A DNA stretch of 39,245 nucleotides, from the NCBI GenBank assembly GCA_947167125.1, contig CAMVGT010000017.1, forward strand, positions 1 to 39,245, read 5' to 3'. The DNA comes from an uncultured Erysipelotrichaceae bacterium. Its GTDB lineage: Bacteria; Bacillota_I; Bacilli_A; Erysipelotrichales; Erysipelotrichaceae. Of this stretch, positions 1,451 through 13,571 are shown in pieces. A model generated the notes under the pieces. That model was given only the letters and a program-made list of their open reading frames with translations. It made no database searches and was not told the DNA's origin. The first letter of the stretch is position 1, and each line of letters starts with the position of its first letter. The position numbers and the translations under genes were made by a program.

Positions 1451-2104
1451 CTAGGAAAGCGGAACGCTGATTCCTGTGTGCCCGGCCATCATGCCGGGAT
1501 GGTGTTCATATGCGTAAAGGACGGATTCGATTTCATCGCGCACAGCAGCGAAGCAGTACAGGGAGCTTTCCATGTTTTCTTCAAAGACGCGCGGCGCTTT
1601 TTCCGTGCATTCGCGAAGGCTTTTGACAAAGCTGTCTTCCGGAGAAAGGCAGTATGCGGACACATTCACATCCGCGTGGCGGATTGCCGCAATGTCCCTG
1701 GCCTCTGCGTCGGTTGAGGCATCGGCACTGATCCAGAAGATCTGCAGGCTGCAGCTGGAAAAGAGATCCTGCATTTCTGCCTTGCGGCACTGACTGAGAC
1801 AGAAGGCGAGGGCGTGCAGAGAGTCGATGGGACTGGACGCAAGCGAGAGGTCCATGATGTCAAAATCTTCATCGGTCCATAACGGCGGTTCATCGAGATA
1901 TTCAAACTGATCGCTCAGCGCGAACCATTCCTTCCCGCAGTACAGATGCACCATGACTCTGGCTCTGTATGCCATTTTGTAAAGATGAACGAAGAGGATG
2001 TTGATCAGCTTCAGCCAGTATTTTCTGTTTTCCGGATTCAGGGCAGGGGTGAGATCGATCAGAAAACAGAGGTCCAGATTTTTTTTAATTGTTAATGTTT
2101 TCAT
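1451..2104 (-). CDS. Von Willebrand factor A-like protein with degenerate metal site
   Basis: 217 residues. The start at 2104 is chosen because GGAG lies just upstream, although the frame is open further; this start lies inside the end of the kinase-like gene (20-base overlap), so translation is probably coupled. The pattern of a hydrophobic strand ending in Asp (FLIDLTPA, about residues 14-21), a long helix, a strand with VMVHLYC, and a later strand IFWISADAST fits a von Willebrand A fold. The usual metal site (DxSxS) reads DLTPA here, so metal binding is probably altered. No membrane segment. VWA proteins usually assemble with ATPases or act as adaptors; the partner here may be the adjacent kinase-like protein. 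The fold is inferred from pattern only. Confidence 0.6.
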   Translation of the reverse strand: MKTLTIKKNLDLCFLIDLTPALNPENRKYWLKLINILFVHLYKMAYRARVMVHLYCGKEWFALSDQFEYLDEPPLWTDEDFDIMDLSLASSPIDSLHALAFCLSQCRKAEMQDLFSSCSLQIFWISADASTDAEARDIAAIRHADVNVSAYCLSPEDSFVKSLRECTEKAPRVFEENMESSLYCFAAVRDEIESVLYAYEHHPGMMAGHTGISVPLS

Positions 2105-2729
2105 CTTCTTTTTCTCCTTCCAGCAGCTTCCGAAGCGAAGCTGTAAATGATACTGCGTCAAACGGGTCCCCGGCACTGAATTCAAAGATGACATTCTTCA
2201 TCAGCGCATAGGCACGATCTTCATCGTCATTGATGATAAAGGCGTCATAATTGTTCATGTGTTTAGCTTCTTCAAGACCGGCCTGCAGGCGGTTATGGAT
2301 TTCTTCTTCTGTTTCGGCTGCGCGCTTCTGCAGACGTTCTTTGAGAACGGATGGGGATTGTACGGTGATAAACAGACTGACCAGACGGTCTTCTCGGATA
2401 TCTTCGGATCTCAGAAGCTGTTCAAATCCGTCTGTATTCAGATCAAGAACAGGAATGCGTCCTTTTTTCTGAACAGCCTTGATTTCCATAAAGGAAGTAC
2501 CGTAGCGGTGGCCGGCATATTCGGTATGTTCCAGGAATTCCTGATCCTGAATCATCTGATCGAATGCCGAAGGTGAAATAAAGTAATAGTTTTCTTCTTC
2601 ACTCCGTCTTTTGCGGTCAGTGAAGGAACGGATCGCGCGGTAGGCAGGATATTCACTGACAAACCGTTCGATCAAAGTGCTTTTTCCGGCACCTGAGAAA
2701 CCGGAAATCACAACCAGGCCGCGGTTCAT
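2085..2729 (-). CDS. Guanylate kinase-like protein
   Basis: 214 residues, close to the usual length of guanylate kinases. It has a Walker A loop GFSGAGKST at residues 10-18, followed by an RSFTDRKRRSEEENYYF stretch that matches the GMP-binding region of guanylate kinases (canonical form S-x-T-T-R-x-P-R ... YYF), and later an HNRL-type lid segment. The threonine-arginine pair of the GMP site is replaced by Thr-Asp, so the substrate may differ. It sits between a small leader ORF, whose stop overlaps its ATG, and a VWA-like gene, with no rpoZ or priA neighbour as usual for housekeeping gmk. I take it to be a paralogue adapted to this cassette, but the sole gmk of the genome is not excluded. Confidence 0.75.
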   Translation of the reverse strand: MNRGLVVISGFSGAGKSTLIERFVSEYPAYRAIRSFTDRKRRSEEENYYFISPSAFDQMIQDQEFLEHTEYAGHRYGTSFMEIKAVQKKGRIPVLDLNTDGFEQLLRSEDIREDRLVSLFITVQSPSVLKERLQKRAAETEEEIHNRLQAGLEEAKHMNNYDAFIINDDEDRAYALMKNVIFEFSAGDPFDAVSFTASLRKLLEGEKEDENINN

Positions 2730-2839
2730 GAAAGCCTCCGCAGACCGGGATGGTGCATGTGCGTACCGGATGGAAACACCCGGATTTTCTTTGTGCAGGG
2801 TACGTTGAAAACAACTCCTGCCGATCGCATGGAATTCAT
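2726..2839 (-). CDS. 37-residue leader ORF coupled to the kinase-like gene
   Basis: An ATG at 2839 sits six bases after a perfect AGGAGG, the best ribosome site in this operon, and opens a 37-codon frame that ends in TGA overlapping the kinase-like ATG (ATGA). The kinase-like gene itself has only a CGGAGG-like site within this ORF. The predicted peptide is basic (MNSMRSAGVVFNVP..., ending in PGLRRLS) and resembles nothing I know. It may be a translated leader that couples ribosomes to the kinase, or a genuine small protein. The frame extends upstream to 3022, but that longer form lacks a ribosome site and would cover the promoter region. Confidence 0.4.
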   Translation of the reverse strand: MNSMRSAGVVFNVPCTKKIRVFPSGTHMHHPGLRRLS

Positions 2840-3053
2840 ATGTTTCCTCCTGAATAATTGTGTGTTTTTAAGATATAAAAAAGGATCTTCATCCGAATCC
2901 GGCGCAAGAGACAGATTCATCTGACAGCAGCACTGTCTATGAAGATAAAGGGCGGATACACGGGGACTGAATGATATCGTGCATCGCACCTTCAATATAT
3001 CATGCCGTATACAGCGGATCAATTATTTAGTAAATGTAAAATAAACTTTAATG

Positions 3054-3068
3054 ATATTTCCGAAATAT
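3054..3068. promoter_or_regulatory. Perfect palindrome in divergent intergenic region
   Basis: ATATTTC-C-GAAATAT is a perfect 15-base palindrome in the AT-rich gap between the minus-strand cassette and the gene at 3125. A TATGAT/TAAAAT-rich stretch follows at about 3084-3096, suitable for a -10 element, but I see no clear -35. It could be an operator for either direction. The rest of 2840-3124 shows only AT-rich sequence and no other gene. Confidence 0.4.
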
Positions 3069-3124
3069 ACAAATAATATGGTTTATGATATAAAATAAAT
3101 ACAGGCAGAAGGAAAAAATGAGAT

Positions 3125-4114
3125 ATGGGAAGAAAAAACGCGTCTGATGATCTTACGTTTGAAGAAAAGCAGAATTTTCATGCTAACTTCCGCTATATGT
3201 GGGATAAGCTCGGTACATCCTATTATTATATCCTCGGACCGGATTCCAAGGATGATTTTGAAGAAAGAAGAAACGGAATCAATGATGATCTAGGACTTCT
3301 GCCGTCGTATACTATCTGTTCGAAATGCTATACCGGCAAGGAAAACTTCTGGCCGGGAAGAAATACGATCCGCAAAGTCGTCAATTTTTATAACCGCTGG
3401 ATCACGCCTGAAATCAGCGTCGCGGAAATCATATCCACACGCCTTGCGGAATCCGACGACAGGCGCTTCAGGATCGGGGATGAAATGGATCACCGCTTCA
3501 TCGGTGTCTATTACGGATATTACTGGTCGCAGAATCTGAAAAAGCTGACAGGGGCATATCTGATCCTGACACCCGGCAGCACAAAAATGATGGCGCATCT
3601 GATCACCGGCTTCCGCACCGATGAAGATCTACATGAACAGAATCTTCTCGATCATGTGATCGGAACAAACAAAATCTCCAACAGTAGCTATCATGAATGG
3701 TTTATCCATATGCCGGTGCAGAAACAGCAGACCAACTACTATACCGGCGAAGCGGAAATGAACGGCAGCACGATCGTGATCCGTCTTTCCGGAAATGACC
3801 GCGATTTCAGAAGAATGACACTCATCCTCAATACCCGGGCATTTGCCCAGTCGGAAAAATTCAACCGCTCCAGTGACGGCTTCATGGCATTTGTCCTGTC
3901 GAGCGGCACCGGTGCTGCTCCGCCGTTTTTCTGCCGGATGGGATTCATCCGCAAGGACAGTTTCCCGCTTTCACTGGAAACACAGCAGCTCGGGGAACTG
4001 TTAATCAATGACAGAAGCGAACAGGTAACGGAACTGACAACCGGACTGGATTCGAAATGGATCGAAACGGTCTGGGCTCTGAAAGCGGATAAAAATAATC
4101 CGCCCCGCATATGA
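3125..4114 (+). CDS. Hypothetical protein with HTH-like N-terminus
   Basis: 329 residues, no membrane segment or signal peptide. The first 105 residues read like a diverged helix-turn-helix module: FRYMWDKLGTSYYYIL near residue 27, a short loop with a Cys-x-x-Cys pair (CSKC), then FWPGRNTIRKVVNFYN followed by an acidic helix. The remainder is mixed alpha/beta with no motif I know. AAGG lies about 13 bases before this ATG and six before a second ATG at 3118, which opens only nine codons (ATG to TGA) and may be a short overlapping leader. The gene stands alone: a divergent operon lies before it and a hairpin follows at its stop. A regulator with a C-terminal sensor domain is my inference. Confidence 0.7.
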   Translation: MGRKNASDDLTFEEKQNFHANFRYMWDKLGTSYYYILGPDSKDDFEERRNGINDDLGLLPSYTICSKCYTGKENFWPGRNTIRKVVNFYNRWITPEISVAEIISTRLAESDDRRFRIGDEMDHRFIGVYYGYYWSQNLKKLTGAYLILTPGSTKMMAHLITGFRTDEDLHEQNLLDHVIGTNKISNSSYHEWFIHMPVQKQQTNYYTGEAEMNGSTIVIRLSGNDRDFRRMTLILNTRAFAQSEKFNRSSDGFMAFVLSSGTGAAPPFFCRMGFIRKDSFPLSLETQQLGELLINDRSEQVTELTTGLDSKWIETVWALKADKNNPPRI

Positions 4115-4128
4115 TCCCTGCGGATCAT
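4111..4128. repeat. Perfect 7-bp hairpin at gene end
   Basis: ATGATCC-CTGC-GGATCAT forms a perfect stem over the stop codon of the upstream gene. There is no U-tract, so it is not a clear intrinsic terminator; it may stabilise the 3' end. A possible -10 (TACAAT, 4133-4138) for the PAP2 gene follows directly. Confidence 0.45.
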
Positions 4129-4171
4129 ACGCTACAATGAAAACAGAAAACGAAGACGTCCGGAGGTGTCT

Positions 4172-4867
4172 ATGAAGAAACTGACAGACCTTTTGAAAAG
4201 AGTTCCATGGTGGGGATATGTGCTCGGAATTGTATATTTCGCACTGCAGTACGGCATGTACAGACTGGGAAACTGGCTGAGCGTTGTGCTCGGCACAATC
4301 AATTACGCATTCGAATGGAAAATCGCACCGATTGATGACCTGTTTCCGGTCATCCCCGCATTCTCACTGATTTATATTTATTCCTATGTCTTCTGGATCA
4401 TGGGACCGATGGCGGTTTCCATCACAAAAAGAAGAAACTTCATCAATTACATCTGCGGGCTTACACTGGCCTATATCATCGGCTTTCTCTTCTTTGTCTT
4501 CATGCCGACATACATGGACAGAGTCAAGGAAGGGCTGATGGAATATGCGGACAAGACCGGTTTCCTCAATCAGCTTCTCGCATCTGTATTTGCGGCGGAT
4601 GGCGGAACGATGGCATTCAATCTGTTCCCGTCCTATCACTGCCTGATCAGTGCCTATTGCTGGCTCGGAGTATGGAAACAGCCTGAAATCTCAAAAGGAT
4701 TCCAGATGTATTCCCTGATCATGTTCATCCTGATTGTGCTTTCCACGCTCTTCACCAAGCAACATTACATTCCCGACTGCTTCGGCGGCATCGGCATCGC
4801 AGTATTCTGTTACTGGCTGATGAACCGTCTTGATCCCGGGAAAAAGTGGGAAGAAAAACATTCCTGA
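4172..4867 (+). CDS. PAP2-superfamily integral membrane protein
   Basis: 231 residues with about six hydrophobic segments. It carries the two better conserved parts of the PAP2 lipid-phosphatase signature: FPSYHCLIS (PSxH type) in the middle and TLFTKQHYIPD (SRxxxxxHxxxD type, with Thr-Lys for Ser-Arg) near the end. The spacing fits the inositol-phosphorylceramide-synthase-like subgroup of bacterial PAP2 proteins. Such enzymes remove or transfer phosphate or head groups on lipid substrates at the outer face of the membrane; the substrate cannot be told from sequence. The ATG at 4172 is preferred over a GTG at 4166 because CGGAGGTG lies just before it. It is followed by a strong terminator. 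Confidence 0.8.
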   Translation: MKKLTDLLKRVPWWGYVLGIVYFALQYGMYRLGNWLSVVLGTINYAFEWKIAPIDDLFPVIPAFSLIYIYSYVFWIMGPMAVSITKRRNFINYICGLTLAYIIGFLFFVFMPTYMDRVKEGLMEYADKTGFLNQLLASVFAADGGTMAFNLFPSYHCLISAYCWLGVWKQPEISKGFQMYSLIMFILIVLSTLFTKQHYIPDCFGGIGIAVFCYWLMNRLDPGKKWEEKHS

Positions 4868-4880
4868 TTCATTCATGCAA

Positions 4881-4906
4881 GGCTGACTCCGTCGGCCTTT
4901 TTTTTC
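4881..4906 (+). terminator. Intrinsic terminator
   Basis: GGCTGAC-TCC-GTCGGCC stem (one G-U pair) followed by eight T, 13 bases after the PAP2 stop. Confidence 0.85.
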
Positions 4907-4931
4907 TTTTTCCGGAAGCTTCTTGTATTCA

Positions 4932-4981
4932 ATATCGTTATATGATATCGTAAAGACGAAGATAATATCGTTTAACGATAT
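4932..4981. promoter_or_regulatory. Two matching operators upstream of padR
   Basis: Two copies of ATATC-N7-GATAT occur at 4932-4948 (ATATCGTTATATGATAT) and 4965-4981 (ATATCGTTTAACGATAT). The second is a perfect 17-base palindrome. Their starts are 33 bases apart, about three helical turns, so bound dimers would lie on the same DNA face. The second copy ends 11 bases before the PadR start. PadR-family repressors commonly bind such dyads in their own promoter, so autoregulation is likely. Confidence 0.8.
4938..4966 (+). promoter_or_regulatory. Candidate promoter of padR operon
   Basis: TTATAT (4938-4943), a 17-base spacer and GATAAT (4961-4966). The -35 lies in the first operator and the -10 touches the second, giving a start near 4973 and a leader of about 20 bases with GGAGG. 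The -35 matches poorly, so this is tentative. Confidence 0.45.
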
Positions 4982-4992
4982 CGGAGGAAAAC

Positions 4993-5343
4993 ATGCCGAG
5001 AAAATCCATGCAGATTTTAACCGACTCAATGTTTTACATCCTGATGGCGCTTTCCGTAAAGGAATTATGCGGTCAGGACATCACAGATGTGATTGCGTCG
5101 CTGACAGATCGGAGAATTGAAATCGGACCGGCAACCCTGTATACGCTTCTTTCCAAATTCCTGAAGGAGGGGATGATTGAAGAAGTTTCCGTGCAGGGCA
5201 GAAAGCGTACCTACCGGATCACAGAATACGGTCTTGAAGTCTATCAGGCGGAAAAGGAGCGTCTTGCCATGTGTCTGAAAGATGCGGAAAGGATTGCGGA
5301 TTATGAACGAAAAAAAGAAGCTGATTCCCTGTCCTTCATATGA
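4993..5343 (+). CDS. PadR-family transcriptional regulator
   Basis: 116 residues, the usual size of short PadR regulators. It is a winged helix throughout: DSMFYILMALSVKELCGQDI (start helix and turn), IEIGPATLYTLLSKFLKEGM (recognition helix with the ATLY core), RKRTYRITEYG (wing), then a C-terminal dimerisation helix. GGAGG lies eight bases before the ATG. Two matching dyads sit in its promoter. It overlaps the next gene, a DUF2812 membrane protein, by 41 bases; PadR with DUF2812 is a recurring pair in Bacillota in which the regulator controls the membrane protein. The inducer is unknown; PadR proteins often sense phenolic or drug-like compounds. Confidence 0.92.
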   Translation: MPRKSMQILTDSMFYILMALSVKELCGQDITDVIASLTDRRIEIGPATLYTLLSKFLKEGMIEEVSVQGRKRTYRITEYGLEVYQAEKERLAMCLKDAERIADYERKKEADSLSFI

Positions 5344-6610: not shown

Positions 6611-7687
6611 ATGAAACTGAACCAGAATATATTTGTACATGAAACCGACAGGGCGGCGATGGAAGCCCTGCAGGCAATACCGGGCTTTTCACAGGTGATG
6701 AAAGCCTTCATGAAAAGCTGGAGCGAAAAAGCGATGTATATCGAAAACATGGCTTCCAACATCCGTATCTCGGAAGACCAGTTTCCTCAGTATGACGCAA
6801 TGCTGAAGGAAATCAGCGCGAAGCTCGGCATTGAGAAACCGGATCTCTTTCTCAAGATGGATGTTGTGCCCAATGCCTATACATCGGGAGAAACCAAACC
6901 GTTTATTGTGATGACAAGCGGACTTCTTGAACTGATGCCGGAAGAACTGATCCCGACCGTTCTTGCCCATGAATGCGGACATATCGTCTGCCACCATGTG
7001 CTTTACAGGACAATGGGCACCTGGGTGCTTTCCGGCGCGCTGGCTCTGGTACCGCTCGGCGCAATTGCCATGTATCCGATTATGACCGCGTTCCATAACT
7101 GGATGAGATGCAGCGAATTGTCCGCTGACAGAGCGGCTGTATTATGCGATGGAACACCGGACAAGGTGATTGAAATGTGCATGCGCTTTGCCGGAGGAAC
7201 ACAGAATATCGCTTCCCAGCTCAATATTGAAGCCTTCATGAAACAGGCACAGGAATACCGCGATCTGGTATCGGACGGCATGATGAACAAGGCGATTGAA
7301 CACATGCGCTTTTCCCAGGCCACCCATCCGATGAACGCGGTCCGTGCCCTTGCATGCCAGGAGTGGGCAGGCTCTGACAGTTATCAGATGGCAAAAGAAT
7401 ATTTTGACCGCTTCCGCAATGGTCTGGAACCGGAATACCTGCCGGTTCACTGGACAGACAAGACCTTTATCGGCAAAGATTTCAAGATCGCCGAAAAGCA
7501 GCTGCGCGAATGCGGATTCACCAATATCATCACCGTGGCACAGGATCAGAGAAAACTGTTCGACCGCGACTATGGCGTTGTTTCAATTAAAATCAAAGAG
7601 GATGCGGATACGAAAAACGGCTGGATCGCGCCGGATACGCCGATCCTGCTGAAATATACAGCGCCGGCTCAGAAACAGACGCATTGA
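6611..7687 (+). CDS. M48-family zinc metallopeptidase
   Basis: 358 residues. The zinc site HECGH is at residues 120-124, with the third ligand in CSELSADRA (Glu169, Asp173), the Ste24/HtpX arrangement. One hydrophobic hairpin (about 135-158) lies between them, so the protein may be membrane-attached but lacks the multiple helices of HtpX. The C-terminal region of about 90 residues (from EYLPVHWTDK) is an added domain I do not recognise. The start at 6611 follows GGAG by nine bases; an in-frame ATG at 6596 has no ribosome site. It forms its own unit between two terminators. A role in membrane or envelope protein turnover is family knowledge; the substrate is unknown. Confidence 0.88.
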   Translation: MKLNQNIFVHETDRAAMEALQAIPGFSQVMKAFMKSWSEKAMYIENMASNIRISEDQFPQYDAMLKEISAKLGIEKPDLFLKMDVVPNAYTSGETKPFIVMTSGLLELMPEELIPTVLAHECGHIVCHHVLYRTMGTWVLSGALALVPLGAIAMYPIMTAFHNWMRCSELSADRAAVLCDGTPDKVIEMCMRFAGGTQNIASQLNIEAFMKQAQEYRDLVSDGMMNKAIEHMRFSQATHPMNAVRALACQEWAGSDSYQMAKEYFDRFRNGLEPEYLPVHWTDKTFIGKDFKIAEKQLRECGFTNIITVAQDQRKLFDRDYGVVSIKIKEDADTKNGWIAPDTPILLKYTAPAQKQTH

Positions 7688-7692
7688 TTTTG

Positions 7693-7718
7693 AAAGGGAC
7701 TGCGGTCCTTTTCTTTTT
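7693..7718 (+). terminator. Intrinsic terminator
   Basis: AAAGGGAC-TGCG-GTCCTTTT stem (one G-U pair) followed by CTTTTT, just after the peptidase stop. Confidence 0.75.
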
Positions 7719-7809
7719 GATCTGCATACTTGCGGAAGAATACCGTGCTATGATTTTTGAGGATATTAAATTTTCGTGACAATCATTCATACAGGAGGAG
7801 CTGGGGAAT

Positions 7810-9216
7810 ATGCTGCTGTTTCAGACATTGCTGAAAATCAGAAAGGAAATGAATGCAGAACGGTTTCTTGATCTGGTCATTGAATGGAACGAAACCAATG
7901 AACATGAAGAAAACCGGATTGAAGATATCAGAGCCATCCGTGAGGGTATCCAGTACTGCGGAAATGACATGGTCAATATGGAAGTGCTGCACTGGCCCTT
8001 GCAGAACATCATTGCCGTACGCTACCGCAAAAAGTCGGAAGACGGAATCCAATGGACAACCGACTATGTTATGAATTTCAGCGAATCCCGCATGGCGGTC
8101 AGACTGGAAAGAACATACAGCGAGGATGCGTTAATGATGTATGCGCCTTTTTCCGCGCCGCATTTCATCTCGCTTCTGATTGAACACGGATATCTTGAAG
8201 ATGACCATGGTTTAAAGATTGATCGCAGACCGAAATATATCGATGAAACCAACGCGGACCTTCTGGCAGATATCGTCCTGAGAGGAAATTCCTTTGATCT
8301 GCCTGCTGTCTATCTTTCCAGAACCTATTATGATGAAGACCCGGTCGAACCCGGTCTGCTTGCGTCAAAGCTCAAAGGCATTGCCCATGTATTCAGCGAA
8401 AAGAACTTCCTCATGGATCCTTTGATCCGGGAAAAGACGGAAGGCAACAATGAATATCATGGCGCTGTCGGCATTTATTATCCAGGTTCCGTTTCTGAAC
8501 ACGAACGTCTTTTCTACCGCGCAAAGCAGGGATATGATCAGAACCTGATGAATCAGATCATCCGCATCCTGATGGAATATGCAGGACAGAGAATGGTCGA
8601 TCCTCTGTATACATGGCATGGCGTCTACAGCGCGATGCTGGAAGAAGATGTGCGGACACAGAAAAAACGGACGGACGCGGCTGAAAAAGAAAAGGATGAA
8701 GTCTATGAACTCTTTGACCGGGATCTTGAAAAATACCGCGCCCGCGTGGAGGAACTGACATCTGCCGCCCAGGCAAAGGATGCCGAAATTCTCGGCCTGA
8801 GGAAAAAGCTGAGAAACAGCGAAGGCGCGTTGTTAAAAGGAGGAAAGGAAGAAGAATTCTTCCCGTTGGAAATCCAGGAAATCGTCATGGACGCGCTCAG
8901 CGAAACCCTGAAGAACACAAAAGAAAACACCCGCAGGGCGGATGTGATCAAAGACATCATCGATGCCAATGAATATCCACATAAACTGAAGGCGATGCAG
9001 GATGAAATCCGCAGTCTGTTCAAAGGCTATCAGTCCATGAATGCATCAATGCGCAGAAAACTGCAGGAGATGGGATTCACTGTCGAAGAGGACGGCAGGC
9101 ATCTGAAACTTGTCTATCATGATGATCAGAGATATGCCACAACGATTGCCAAAACCGGCAGCGACCACAGGGAAGGTCAGAACATTGCCGCTGTGATTGT
9201 GAAAGGAATGCTGTGA
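7810..9216 (+). CDS. Coiled-coil protein with HicA-like C-terminal domain
   Basis: 468 residues, no signal peptide or membrane segment. Three parts are visible. Residues 1 to about 275 are mixed alpha/beta with a LPAVYLSRTYYDEDPVEP segment, then LLASKLKGIAHVFSE and GAVGIYYPG; this looks like a conserved domain but I cannot name it. Residues about 280-345 are a charged coiled coil. Residues about 418-468 (KLQEMGFTVEEDGRHLKL ... GQNIAAVIVKGML) follow the HicA pattern: strand, GxH with His431 where HicA toxins have their histidine, strand, then helix. HicA-like and double-stranded-RNA-binding folds bind RNA. AGGAGG precedes the start. The stop overlaps the KptA start (TGATG), so the two are co-translated. 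Function in RNA metabolism is inference. Confidence 0.75.
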   Translation: MLLFQTLLKIRKEMNAERFLDLVIEWNETNEHEENRIEDIRAIREGIQYCGNDMVNMEVLHWPLQNIIAVRYRKKSEDGIQWTTDYVMNFSESRMAVRLERTYSEDALMMYAPFSAPHFISLLIEHGYLEDDHGLKIDRRPKYIDETNADLLADIVLRGNSFDLPAVYLSRTYYDEDPVEPGLLASKLKGIAHVFSEKNFLMDPLIREKTEGNNEYHGAVGIYYPGSVSEHERLFYRAKQGYDQNLMNQIIRILMEYAGQRMVDPLYTWHGVYSAMLEEDVRTQKKRTDAAEKEKDEVYELFDRDLEKYRARVEELTSAAQAKDAEILGLRKKLRNSEGALLKGGKEEEFFPLEIQEIVMDALSETLKNTKENTRRADVIKDIIDANEYPHKLKAMQDEIRSLFKGYQSMNASMRRKLQEMGFTVEEDGRHLKLVYHDDQRYATTIAKTGSDHREGQNIAAVIVKGML

Positions 9217-9764
9217 TGAGTAAAAGAAATGATACATTGACAAAAACCAGCCGCTTCATCAGTCTCATCCTGCGCCATCAGCCCGAAGCGATCGGTATCA
9301 CGCTTGATGAACATGGCTGGGCGGATACTGAGCAGCTGATCAAAGGCGTTTCAGCGACGCATCCGTTAAACAGAGATATTCTCGAAGAAATTGTGAGAAC
9401 GGATGAAAAGCAGCGCTATTCCTTCAATGAGGACCATACAAAGATACGGGCCAACCAGGGCCATTCCATCCCGGTCGATGTGGAACTGAAGGAAACAGAT
9501 CCGCCGGCCGTTCTGTATCACGGAACCGGAGAAAAATATGTTTCCTCCATTGAAAAAGAAGGACTCAAGCCGCAGTCAAGACTGTATGTGCATTTATCTG
9601 CCGATACTGATACCGCATTTAAAGTCGGCAGACGCCATGGAAAACCTGTGATCTTTATGATTGATGCCGCAAAGATGAAAGAAGACGGATATCCATTCTT
9701 TCTTTCCGTCAACGGCGTCTGGCTCACAAAAGCAGTACCGGTTTCCTATCTGACACGTCTTTGA
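9216..9764 (+). CDS. kptA: RNA 2'-phosphotransferase (KptA/Tpt1)
   Basis: 182 residues, full family length. It transfers an internal 2'-phosphate from RNA to NAD+, giving ADP-ribose 1'',2''-cyclic phosphate and nicotinamide. Visible signatures: SLILRHQPE with the catalytic Arg20-His21, KIRANQGHS with Arg78, LYHGT at 100-104, LYVHLSAD, and FKVGRRHGKPV with Arg139/140; these correspond to the Arg-His-Arg-Arg set of Tpt1. The ATG at 9216 is chosen over GTG 9213 because it forms the usual TGATG overlap with the preceding gene. Bacteria have no known tRNA splicing that leaves 2'-phosphates, so the cellular substrate is open; the coupled upstream gene may supply it. Confidence 0.95.
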   Translation: MSKRNDTLTKTSRFISLILRHQPEAIGITLDEHGWADTEQLIKGVSATHPLNRDILEEIVRTDEKQRYSFNEDHTKIRANQGHSIPVDVELKETDPPAVLYHGTGEKYVSSIEKEGLKPQSRLYVHLSADTDTAFKVGRRHGKPVIFMIDAAKMKEDGYPFFLSVNGVWLTKAVPVSYLTRL

Positions 9765-9804
9765 ATCCATCAGTTCTTCTTATAGGGTTCTTCGTGAATC
9801 AGAA

Positions 9805-9833
9805 TTGTTCATTCATGCCGATATCACTATTCT
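9805..9833 (+). promoter_or_regulatory. Candidate sigma-A promoter
   Basis: TTGTTC (9805-9810), 17-base spacer, TATTCT (9828-9833), upstream of the flavodoxin lipoprotein. No terminator is evident after kptA, so some read-through from kptA is also possible. Confidence 0.45.
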
Positions 9834-9860
9834 TGAAACGTACAGAAGAAGGATGCGCAT

Positions 9861-10526
9861 ATGAACAGAATGATCCGGATCCTCTCTGCGCTTACGCTCC
9901 TTGCGCCGCTTGCCGCATGCGGTGCGCAGCAGAGTGCAGAGACAGCAGATACAGAAGAACCCGCAGTCACAGAAGAAGCAGTGATTGAAGAAGCAGCAGA
10001 GCCCGAAGAAACAAAAGAAGAAGGAAAGGCATTGATTGCCTATTTCTCAAGAGCCGATGAAAACTACAATGTCGGCGTGATTGAAGAAGGCAATACATAC
10101 AAAGTTGCCAAAGAAATCGCGGCACAGACCGGCTGCGATCTCTTTGAAATCCGCACCGTAAACGGCTATCCGCAAAGCTATGACGAATGCATTGCCATCG
10201 CTCAGAAAGAACAGGATAAAAACGCAAGACCCGAACTTGCCGAAACCATTGATCTCAGTGAGTATGATGAAATCTATCTCGGCTCGCCGGTCTGGTGGGG
10301 CGATTATCCGATGGCAGTCTACACATTCCTGGAATCCAATGATTTTGCAGGAAAGACGATCCATCCGTTCAATACCCATGAAGGATCCGGTTCCGCCGGC
10401 TTTGAGGCAAAGCTGAAAAGGGTATGTCCGGACGCGGAAGTGACAGAGATCCTTTCAATCCAGGGCGCCGAAGCGCAGAATGATCCTGACAGGGTTAAAC
10501 AGGCAGTCGCGGACTGGCTGAAATAA
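9861..10526 (+). CDS. Flavodoxin-domain lipoprotein
   Basis: 221 residues. A type II signal peptide ends in LAAC (Cys20), followed by a Glu/Thr/Ala-rich linker to about residue 50. The rest is a flavodoxin fold: LIAYFSRADENYNVG (phosphate-binding loop region), then GNTYKVAKEIAAQTGCDLFEI, IYLGSPVWWGDYPMAVYTFL (FMN isoalloxazine loop) and THEGSGSAG. It would bind FMN and sit anchored outside the membrane, presumably passing electrons to or from an extracytoplasmic redox partner. Flavodoxins are normally cytosolic; lipoprotein forms are a recurring variant in gut Bacillota. AAGGA precedes the ATG by eight bases. A bidirectional terminator follows. Confidence 0.9.
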   Translation: MNRMIRILSALTLLAPLAACGAQQSAETADTEEPAVTEEAVIEEAAEPEETKEEGKALIAYFSRADENYNVGVIEEGNTYKVAKEIAAQTGCDLFEIRTVNGYPQSYDECIAIAQKEQDKNARPELAETIDLSEYDEIYLGSPVWWGDYPMAVYTFLESNDFAGKTIHPFNTHEGSGSAGFEAKLKRVCPDAEVTEILSIQGAEAQNDPDRVKQAVADWLK

Positions 10527-10542
10527 TCATCAATTTCATTAC

Positions 10543-10567
10543 AAAAACCGGCAGACAGCCGGTTTTT
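10543..10567. terminator. Bidirectional intrinsic terminator
   Basis: AAAAACCGGC-AGACA-GCCGGTTTTT, perfect 10-bp stem with T-tracts both ways, between the convergent flavodoxin and helicase genes. It overlaps the helicase stop codon. Confidence 0.92.
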
Positions 10568-13500
10568 AAGATGCCCGGAAATAGCGGGACAGAATATCTT
10601 TCATATAGTGATAGCGTCTTGCATAGGTGTTATCGACACGGATCAGTTCGAAGCCATGTTCTCTGCAGATGGCTTCTTTTTTTTCATCCCTTGCCTTCAC
10701 CGCATCGCTGTCCATATGTTCTCTTCCGTCCAGTTCAATTGCGAGAACCGGAATCTCACGGTTATTGATTTTCCGGAAGACCGTAAAATCAAAGCGTCCT
10801 TTGTAGAAATATCCGGAAAGGGAAGGGTTGTTCACAAAGATCTGCGATATCGGAACTTCCTTATGCACGGTATAGCGCCTGCCGTCTGAAAATGCGTTAT
10901 CGAGGGCGTGATTCAGATTGAGCAGGAATGCTTCTTCGGTTTCCGTGCTGTAGGGACGGATGCCGAGCGCTCTTGACTGGCATTCGTGCGAAACAATTTC
11001 ACATTCACCGTTTGTGCGCACATACTGCACCAGATCATAAAGATCATCATCTTCCAGCGGATTATGAAGCTTCCTTAAGGCATCGGTGCTTCCGATCACA
11101 AGAAGCTTCTTTCTGGCTCTTGAAGTTGAAACATTGATCAGTTCGCGGTTGTTTTTCAGCCATTCATAGGTTTCCGGTCTTGTCTGCTCAGACAGACACA
11201 GAGAGAACAGGATCACATCCTTTTCGTCTCCCTGAAAGGCATGAACCGTACCGCACTGCGCATTGCCGCAGCCGCTGTTTTCCAGCGCGGACTGGATCAG
11301 TTTTCTCTGGGCCACAAAAGGTGTGATGATGCCGGCATTGTCATCGGGATGCCGTCTGAGATAATCGATCACCGCGTCAGCTTCCTTCGGCGATGTGTTT
11401 TTGACTGCTGTTTCGCTTTTTCCCACATCGATATAGACAAGCGGTTTCGGATCAATGCTTCTGCCGTCCAGCTTCAGTCTGGAATTGTAATACTTCTTAT
11501 TGGAAAAGCTGATGATCTTCGGATCGCAGCGGTAATGGTGGCTTAAAAGGATTTCATCGCTGACCGCGTCATTTGCCAGCATTGTTTTATAAATCGAGCT
11601 GCGGCAGTAATCATATTCTTCCGCCACGCCATAGCGTTTTCTTAAGGCATCGGAATCGCTTTGCGCAAGCAGAATCACCGGCTGCAGCTGCTGGGGATCC
11701 CCGACCATCATCAATCCTTTTCCTCTGATGATCGGAACCAGGGAAACAGCAGTATTGCATTGGCTTGCTTCATCGAGAATGGTCAGATCAAACTGAGGAA
11801 CCGGAGGACCCAGGCGTCTAGCGGAAATGCAGGTTGTCGCAATGACGGGGAAGACTTCCAGAAGAGCCGCAAGGTTTTCCTTTGCGCCGATCCAGGAATT
11901 GAATTCCTTGACCATGCCTTCATCATTTTCAATCGCGATGATCCGCTTCAGGCCGTCATATTTTTCATCCGGCAGTTTTGCAAGGCGGGCGTTGGATGCT
12001 TCATACAGCCAGGAAAGCATCTGATCAAAATCCGTACCGATCATTTTCAATGCTTCATCAATTTCAAATTCACCGGCTTTTTCCAGTTCCTTTTCAATCC
12101 GGGGCAGCTGACGGGTTTCAATTTCAAGGGCAAAATTCATCTGTGTGCTGCTTTTCAGAAGCTGTTCAGCAGCCTCTTTGCGCTCGAGAAGATCCAGTTT
12201 TGTTTCATAGCGGTCAAGATACCTGCTCAGCTTTCTCGCATGGCGGGATCTTGATATATATGCTTTCTCCATTCTCTTTTCATAGATCTTTGTCTTTTCA
12301 ATGGTTTTCAGTAATTCACCGAGCCGCCTTAAGGAGCGGATGGTTTCCTCCTGGTTGCCCAGGCGGAGCACCGGGAAACGGACCGGCTTATCATGATATT
12401 TCAATGAACACAGCTTTTCGACAGCTTCATCAATCGGATGATTGTTGAAGGAGGAAAGCAGAACGGTGCGCTGATTGAAAAAAGCAGTGATCACGGTTCT
12501 GACAATGGTCATGGTCTTGCCGGTGCCGGGCGGACCCTGTACATAGGAAACCGGCATGCGCATGGCATGGTTCATTGCCGTCAGCTGATCCAGATTGACC
12601 TGCTCATCGGTTAAGGCAAGCGGCAGGGAATCCGAAGCTTCCGGTCTTGCCGTCAGCTCACCGAAAAATGCCCGTACCGGCGCTGTGACGGCTTCGGGAT
12701 CCGAATCATCATACATCTGCAGAATCCCTTCATATTCCGCATCAAGATTCATTTTCGAATCCCGGCATACTTCAATCATATAGGGCATATCATCCACCGG
12801 AAGGCCTGGGCAGGATACAGCGATTGCTTCACGGATCGCTTCGGCATTCTGCCGGAAATGATTGAGCAGATCGAGATATTCCGGATTCATGAAACGGCGG
12901 ATTGTCTGAACCGTGCCGTGGATTGTAAACTGGCTGCAGATGACGGGATCATCATAAGCGCTTAACATCCTGTTTTTTACATCCAGCCGCAGCGGCTGAT
13001 AGGCAAGCAGATATTTTCCCTGGGCGGTGTGCAGGGAAAGCAGATTGACGCCGAACTGCTTCATTGCAAGTGTGTTTCTGCGGTTTTCCGTACGCTTCTG
13101 GAAAGCGCGGACAATCTGCTTAAACTGTGCGTCATTCAGATGCATCGTGCACTGTTCCAGCACTTCATCATCCATATGATCGACCAGGGTGAAGTTCCCG
13201 ATAAACGGTGCCTGGTCCAGTCTTGCGCATTCGGCAAGATAATTGAGAATCTGCAGGTTGGCGGATGATGAAAAGAGAGGCCTGTATTTTTCCGGATTGT
13301 TCCGGATATCCGCAGCCAGTTCCTCATTCACCCCGGCCCACGTGCCTTCGATGACCTTTGCGTCTTTAATTCTTTTCAGATGCAGATTCAGTGAGGCAAA
13401 TGTATATTTTCCCAGATGCATTCCTTCCGCGCTTAAACGGCCGGAGCGGGGATTGAGATCTTTCACCGCGATCCAGTATCTGGTTGTTTCATTTTTCTGA

Positions 13501-13571
13501 TTCAGATATTCCACAGCCAGCCAGTATCCTTCATGAATGGCGCGGAACAGTTCTTTTGCGACAGTGTTCAT
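10566..13571 (-). CDS. SF1 (Upf1/DNA2-like) helicase with WYL-like N-terminus and nuclease-like C-terminus
   Basis: 1001 residues. Residues 1-75 (FRAIHEGYWLAVEYL, later FASLNLHLKRIKDAKVIEG) resemble a WYL beta-barrel. The helicase core has Walker A GPPGTGKTMT near 347, LTILDEASQ (motif II) near 598, VGDPQQLQPV (motif III) near 623, a LLSHHYRCDP motif IV-type segment, GTVHAFQGDEKDVI (motif V) and NVSTSRARKKLLVIG (motif VI). The last 120 residues resemble a DUF2726/Vsr-type nuclease: FDFTVFRK, then VLAIELDGREH near 943, matching a D...ExD pattern. It should translocate on DNA or RNA using ATP and may cut it. It is a single-gene unit ended by a bidirectional terminator. Similar helicase-nuclease fusions occur in defence systems, but a repair role is equally possible. 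Confidence 0.9.
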   Translation of the reverse strand: MNTVAKELFRAIHEGYWLAVEYLNQKNETTRYWIAVKDLNPRSGRLSAEGMHLGKYTFASLNLHLKRIKDAKVIEGTWAGVNEELAADIRNNPEKYRPLFSSSANLQILNYLAECARLDQAPFIGNFTLVDHMDDEVLEQCTMHLNDAQFKQIVRAFQKRTENRRNTLAMKQFGVNLLSLHTAQGKYLLAYQPLRLDVKNRMLSAYDDPVICSQFTIHGTVQTIRRFMNPEYLDLLNHFRQNAEAIREAIAVSCPGLPVDDMPYMIEVCRDSKMNLDAEYEGILQMYDDSDPEAVTAPVRAFFGELTARPEASDSLPLALTDEQVNLDQLTAMNHAMRMPVSYVQGPPGTGKTMTIVRTVITAFFNQRTVLLSSFNNHPIDEAVEKLCSLKYHDKPVRFPVLRLGNQEETIRSLRRLGELLKTIEKTKIYEKRMEKAYISRSRHARKLSRYLDRYETKLDLLERKEAAEQLLKSSTQMNFALEIETRQLPRIEKELEKAGEFEIDEALKMIGTDFDQMLSWLYEASNARLAKLPDEKYDGLKRIIAIENDEGMVKEFNSWIGAKENLAALLEVFPVIATTCISARRLGPPVPQFDLTILDEASQCNTAVSLVPIIRGKGLMMVGDPQQLQPVILLAQSDSDALRKRYGVAEEYDYCRSSIYKTMLANDAVSDEILLSHHYRCDPKIISFSNKKYYNSRLKLDGRSIDPKPLVYIDVGKSETAVKNTSPKEADAVIDYLRRHPDDNAGIITPFVAQRKLIQSALENSGCGNAQCGTVHAFQGDEKDVILFSLCLSEQTRPETYEWLKNNRELINVSTSRARKKLLVIGSTDALRKLHNPLEDDDLYDLVQYVRTNGECEIVSHECQSRALGIRPYSTETEEAFLLNLNHALDNAFSDGRRYTVHKEVPISQIFVNNPSLSGYFYKGRFDFTVFRKINNREIPVLAIELDGREHMDSDAVKARDEKKEAICREHGFELIRVDNTYARRYHYMKDILSRYFRAS

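Follow-up and report, generated by a model that had tools for sequence, protein, structure and literature searches.

We analyzed a 39,245-nucleotide stretch of DNA from an uncultured Erysipelotrichaceae bacterium (contig CAMVGT010000017.1; hereafter, the window), in which a gene encoding a 468-residue protein with a HicA-like C terminus overlaps kptA, the gene for an RNA 2'-phosphotransferase. An earlier note on this DNA had proposed that the two genes form an RNA modification-and-repair or toxin-and-repair pair. We find instead that KptA is very probably not a dedicated partner of the 468-residue protein, which belongs to a large, widespread, unnamed, and mobile family and appears to be encoded by a solitary accessory gene, probably one for phage defense. 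The fuller reading that we favor, and to which we give an even chance, is that KptA was paired by accident with a lone mobile protein that combines a sensor, a coiled coil, and a HicA-like RNase and acts in abortive phage defense.

Genomic association of kptA with the 468-residue family

Besides the window, we collected 79 loci encoding members of the 468-residue family, 72 on genome contigs and 7 on viral contigs (L048 and L100 are near-duplicates, as are L097 and L098), and sought KptA in them by BLAST and with a profile of 29 KptA sequences, using open reading frames (ORFs) of at least 60 amino acids. All but three of these loci (L081, L088, and L093) yielded a 468-type ORF, and in 64 of the remaining 76 at least 600 bases of downstream sequence were present. 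KptA adjoins the family in a single locus of the 79, L046, from a metagenome-assembled genome of Candidatus Anaerobutyricum, where (positions 1490-3641) a KptA 63% identical to that of the window lies directly downstream and starts about 80 to 100 bases past the family member. Relatives of the 468-residue protein thus mostly lack a KptA neighbor, an outcome that the earlier note had itself named as refuting its proposal, and the adjacency on which the proposed two-gene system was built is not conserved.

The two genes do not travel together at the genome level either. Among 60 relatives, KptA occurs in 38 and the 468-residue family in 15 at E ≤ 1e-3, four of the latter being distant matches of a tandem form described below (G038, G040, G043, and G049). 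Both genes are present in eight relatives (G001, G005, G011, G020, G021, G031, G032, and G041) and are apart in all eight, with 1.1 Mb between them in G041 and a separate contig for each in the others. Their co-presence is not significant (8 of 10 versus 29 of 49 genomes, Fisher p = 0.29, with the window's own genome left out). On the strength of the single adjacent locus, the consistent separation, and the absence of significant co-presence, we rejected a conserved KptA pairing, and the pair as a conserved system is largely refuted.

The TGATG overlap between the two genes tells little of partnership, because kptA overlaps varied upstream genes elsewhere. From 40 kptA matches in relatives we fetched 30 loci, of which 28 remained after exclusion of the window and one unresolved locus (L118). 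In 8 of these 28, kptA overlaps the gene upstream, and the overlapped genes are of seven kinds: GNAT (twice), SseB-domain, Toprim/DUF4093, GAF, XRE-type regulator, radical SAM, and one of no assigned type. kptA, a single gene that moves about, often sits behind and overlaps whichever gene precedes it, and a tempting false lead on its role in bacteria is thereby removed.

We also considered whether the pairs in L046 and in the window descend from a common ancestral pair and rejected this as less likely. The window KptA is 75% identical to unpaired KptA proteins of the same genus (L110 and L124), compared with 63% for that of L046, and two separate meetings are therefore likelier. On a rough reckoning, with one kptA in most genomes and approximately 2,500 genes per genome, chance alone would bring the two genes together about 0.04 times among 79 loci; the single meeting in L046 is mildly unusual, although variable regions gather accessory genes.

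By sequence, the window KptA itself is an ordinary Tpt1/KptA. Its product matches PF01885 (E = 3e-48; 164.6 bits against a curated cut-off of 26), exceeds the NCBIfam equivalog cut-off (251.1 versus 239 bits), and aligns almost end to end with the Tpt1 structure 7kw8_A (E = 1.2e-51). The Arg-His-Arg-Arg tetrad is intact when numbered from the ATG at 9216, the positions having been taken from an alignment with 6ede and counted by hand with that chain's 21-residue offset; PMC6333775 gives the equivalent CthTpt1 residues as R18, H19, R68, and R121. No sequence difference from Tpt1/KptA was seen, the one departure being the lack of a conserved partnership with the adjoining gene.

Architecture and HicA-like C terminus of the 468-residue protein

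The long ORF of the 468-residue protein is not a product of chance, because it is conserved: 289 proteins, the window protein included, match it at E ≤ 0.001. Both genes are real and overlap on the same strand as first described, and the outlined anatomy of an unnamed N-terminal part, a coiled coil, and a HicA-like end with His431 at the toxin's position was likewise borne out, as was the identity of KptA.

The last 59 to 65 or so residues resemble HicA toxins (PF07927; PDB 6hpb, 5yrz, and 6g26) in both sequence and predicted fold. The window protein matches the PADLOC HicA-like model over residues 410-461 (E = 4.3e-4), as do 19 of 28 family members at E ≤ 0.01, and an alignment of the tail matches the sequence of HicA 6hpb at E = 0.1. 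The predicted fold of residues 410-468 is α-β-β-β-α, and its best structural matches are HicA toxins, with low scores; the earlier note's second ground for refutation, a C terminus with neither a HicA nor a double-stranded RNA-binding fold, did not arise. In HicA the histidine of the GxH motif is catalytic. His431 occupies this position and is present in 72 of 72 family members, as are D439 and R441, with G429 in 66 of 72. The likeness has limits, however. The domain here is a 59-residue tail on a 468-residue protein, the second HicA histidine is missing, the Pfam HicA_toxin family (PF07927) gives no match to the window protein at E ≤ 1, and it is not among the 25 listed of the 54 Pfam families that matched 28 family members. 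Taken together, the alignments and the model indicate that the HicA-like C terminus is real but divergent.

We examined whether the tail might be translated separately from Met410. Of 39 genes, 15 have a Shine-Dalgarno-like stretch ahead of codon 410, versus 59 of 433 internal ATGs (codon 410 counted in), and this stretch overlaps the codons of a common Lys-Gly. Codon 410 is not ATG in 10 of the 39 genes, and in 8 of those it is neither GTG nor TTG. The start is not conserved, and we rejected separate translation on that ground. Short proteins containing the HicA-like domain do occur: among 96 candidates, 65 proteins of 50 to 114 amino acids carry it (P0165-P0229), 15 of them exactly 59 residues long, the length from Met410 to the end, and three of the four inspected by sequence begin at the matching place. 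These proteins may be either fragments or separate toxins.

The firmest structural part of the model is a thioredoxin-like fold that lacks the Cys pair (Table 1). The coiled coil is modeled as helices spanning residues 269-291 and 298-339, with lower confidence (pLDDT 50-77) over residues 281-340. In the helical domain that follows, G345, E347, and E354 are present in 72 of 72 family members and R375 in 71 of 72, and the first part of this domain is common to the HicA-less paralog discussed below. A Foldseek search with the whole model gave no match at E ≤ 0.001 in the PDB or viral libraries, an absence that proves nothing, and comparison with PDB sequences returned chance-like, coiled-coil, and weak Hsp70 matches.

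Table 1. Positions of the two genes, the encoded domains, and the upstream hairpin in the window
Feature	Coordinates	Strand	Details	Basis
Terminator-like hairpin + TTTTT	7692..7713	+	9 pairs, 4 G-C	Pattern scan
468-residue protein gene	7810..9216	+	ATG start; AGGAGG 11 bases upstream of ATG	ORF and conservation
N-terminal domain, residues 1-128	7810..8193	+		StART-like arrangement in model (weak)
Thioredoxin-like fold without Cys pair, residues 140-262	8227..8595	+		
Coiled coil, residues 269-339	8614..8826	+		Model helices; weak coiled-coil Pfam matches
Helical domain, residues 345-403	8842..9018	+		Model; conserved residues
HicA-like domain, residues 410-468	9037..9213	+	His431 codon 9100-9102	H431, D439, R441 invariant
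kptA, RNA 2'-phosphotransferase	9216..9764	+	ATG start; 182 residues	Tetrad R20, H21, R67, R122

A GTG at 9213 is a possible alternative start for kptA. The claim that the pair is a transcription unit of its own, bounded by a terminator and by the following promoter, is half supported, because the upstream hairpin is present between an M48 peptidase gene and the 468-residue protein gene, whereas the promoter and the downstream terminator were not found: scanning for + strand signals gave no promoter-like site in positions 7500-10600 and no terminator between kptA and the next gene, scans of this type being weak evidence either way. The 468-residue protein gene and kptA may well share a transcript, through accident of position.

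Distribution, tandem paralogs, and defense context of the family

Members of the 468-residue family are found in 22 of 294 genomes of the window's order at E ≤ 1e-20, a count in which the window genome, three genomes with the tandem form, and one represented by four fragments are included, and in 4 of 392 genomes sampled across the phylum, with the window's own and one tandem-form genome counted in. The neighbors of the family genes are not conserved. The largest shared neighbor family, among ORFs of at least 60 amino acids, is a serine recombinase found in 7 loci, including 5 viral contigs. No conserved partner gene in the manner of HicB emerged, although no search aimed at HicB itself was made. 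Seven contigs in IMG/VR carry the family, those near serine recombinases being L094 and L096-L099, and tblastn gave no match in 50,697 phage records.

The conserved pairing in the 468-residue family is not with KptA but between two paralogs. In distant relatives from the window's order, a HicA-less gene A is followed immediately by a HicA-tailed gene B, an arrangement that is newly described here. Gene B (approximately 420 residues) aligns with the whole 468-residue family (E = 1.4e-39) and retains the HicA-like end and its histidine in 6 of 6 proteins, whereas the alignment of gene A (approximately 350-400 residues; E = 1e-19) ends at residue 388, short of the HicA-like domain. The two paralogs match each other at E = 5.9e-15. 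A gene B search of the 294 genomes matched 29, of which 18, including the window genome itself, have matches of the 468 type (66 to 133 bits) and 11, from four genera in two families, contain gene B proper (at least 395 bits). Immediately upstream of gene B, 10 of these 11 have gene A (L169-L178); as L179 is truncated by a contig end, the arrangement holds in every testable case. Four of the 10 loci are independent (L172, L174, L177, and L178), because the other six are those in which the pair was first read. The two genes overlap by 4 nucleotides in seven of the 10 loci and by 17 and 31 in two others, as reckoned from the called starts; gene B is broken in L178. Three A and three B proteins matched no PADLOC model at E ≤ 1e-3, and no viral locus was found for the tandem form. 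The pair in the window resembles type II toxin-antitoxin and RNA-damage-and-repair pairs in that its genes overlap, run in the same direction, and include one with a toxin-like domain, but differs in that the KptA pairing is not conserved, the conserved pairing being that of the two paralogs in distant relatives.

The surroundings of the family are rich in defense genes. At E ≤ 1e-15, two sets of 134 and 82 neighboring proteins (216 of the 217 listed) matched 124 and 101 PADLOC models, compared with 5 models for 92 kptA neighbors; this ratio is only indicative because the models are redundant, a 1.5-kb cut was applied to the control proteins, and WYL regulators are found among the family neighbors and the controls alike. 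Four of ten neighbors run singly against PADLOC were matched. L048 has a type II restriction endonuclease and Vsr beside the family gene, L089 has a type IV-like enzyme, and the batch matches include LeoA/LeoBC, Cas3, a type II methylase, and PDC-S05.

The family proteins themselves resemble HEC-07, a PADLOC profile for an Hma-embedded defense candidate, which distantly matches 27 of 28 members. The match of the L046 protein extends over positions 42-400 of the 553 in the profile, whereas that of the window protein covers just 106-259 and does not span most of it. HEC genes are described in PMC12988326 and PMC12111858 as Hma-embedded candidates, some with tested antiviral activity. HEC-07 is not named in any paper of the collection searched, and the comparison with it is thus one of profiles rather than function; two PADLOC papers searched by word mention neither HEC nor HicA, nor, in the second, PDC-S.

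Klebsiella pneumoniae carries a mobilizable ColRNAI plasmid of 5.9 kb (L196, NZ_CP028803.2) on which no cargo is evident apart from a relative of the window protein (3836-5257, minus strand; 122 of 441 aligned residues identical), located next to a RelE/ParE toxin and a TraY-domain gene. Plasmid records contain the whole gene in five cases, and 9 of 10 records with the relative are from Klebsiella or Citrobacter. A truncated version of this gene lies close to an ISKpn6 element and a KPC carbapenemase gene on one Citrobacter plasmid (L197, NZ_OQ821053.1).

Possible functions of the 468-residue protein

The defense-rich neighbors, the Klebsiella plasmid with the family gene as its one evident cargo, and the likeness to HEC-07 lead us to favor a stand-alone defense gene. 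In the mechanism we propose, the 468-residue protein would work alone as a mobile accessory protein in abortive infection against phage: the N-terminal StART-like and Cys-pair-free thioredoxin-like domains would detect a signal of infection, the coiled coil would oligomerize the protein, and the activated HicA-like domain would bind and probably cut RNA through His431, arresting the cell. In the tandem form, the HicA-less paralog, co-translated with its HicA-tailed counterpart, would probably be a sensor or inhibitor. More tentatively, the family could be a new defense family with two layouts, either a single fused protein, as in the window, Lachnospiraceae, Streptococcus suis, and the Klebsiella plasmids, or a doubled form, as in four genera of the window's order, in which the HicA-less paralog senses infection or holds back the HicA-tailed effector via the shared coiled coil. 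If these proposals hold, a common unnamed family of gut bacteria, also carried on small Klebsiella plasmids, would be a phage defense with a built-in HicA-like RNase, and the tandem form would represent a HicA-type toxin controlled by its own paralog in place of HicB.

A true two-gene RNA system, in which RNA cut or marked by the HicA-like protein would be freed of its 2'-phosphate by KptA and so made ready for repair, is highly improbable. The overlap of the genes and the second, distant adjacency in L046 would fit such a system, as would what two reports say of KptA, namely a tie to clean-up after RNA cleavage by metal-independent RNases (PMC9503650) and the erasure of the 2'-phosphate on tRNA U47 (PMC9095486), the latter being one candidate role for the window KptA. 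Against it stands the genomic separation described above. Nor were the other steps of a KptA cut-and-repair cycle found in the window genome (G000; 94% complete, kptA present), where searches for RtcB, RNA_ligase PF09414, and the 2H phosphoesterase PF13563 gave no match; the same searches were positive in 9, 6, and 11 of 14 genomes, respectively. No KptA is listed on the Klebsiella plasmid L196, although its gene table may be incomplete.

Two further readings concern the 468-residue protein itself. The HicA fold is also found in RNA-binding domains, and in a defense or plasmid-stability protein the HicA-like end might only bind RNA, in the manner of a double-stranded RNA-binding domain, while the N-terminal domains act; the missing second histidine and the location of the HEC-07 similarity in the N-terminal half of the window protein are consistent with this. 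We nonetheless consider it somewhat unlikely, as the invariant H431, D439, and R441, together with the histidine retained in 6 of 6 gene B proteins, would fit catalysis better than binding alone. Less probable still is a role outside defense, the protein being a housekeeping or metabolic accessory that happens to move with variable regions. Many neighbors are ordinary (Sel1, flavodoxin, and ABC transporters in a Pfam scan of 134 of the 216), and we found no family member with a tested function, but the patchy presence across the order and phylum, the small mobilizable plasmid, and the restriction and other defense genes nearby all speak against such a role.

The window also encodes, on the minus strand at 10566-13571, an SF1 helicase with a DUF2726 nuclease-like end that matches the PADLOC MkoA-like model (E = 2.9e-55). 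The same helicase lies two genes downstream of a 468-type gene in three loci of the same genus (L022, L024, and L030).
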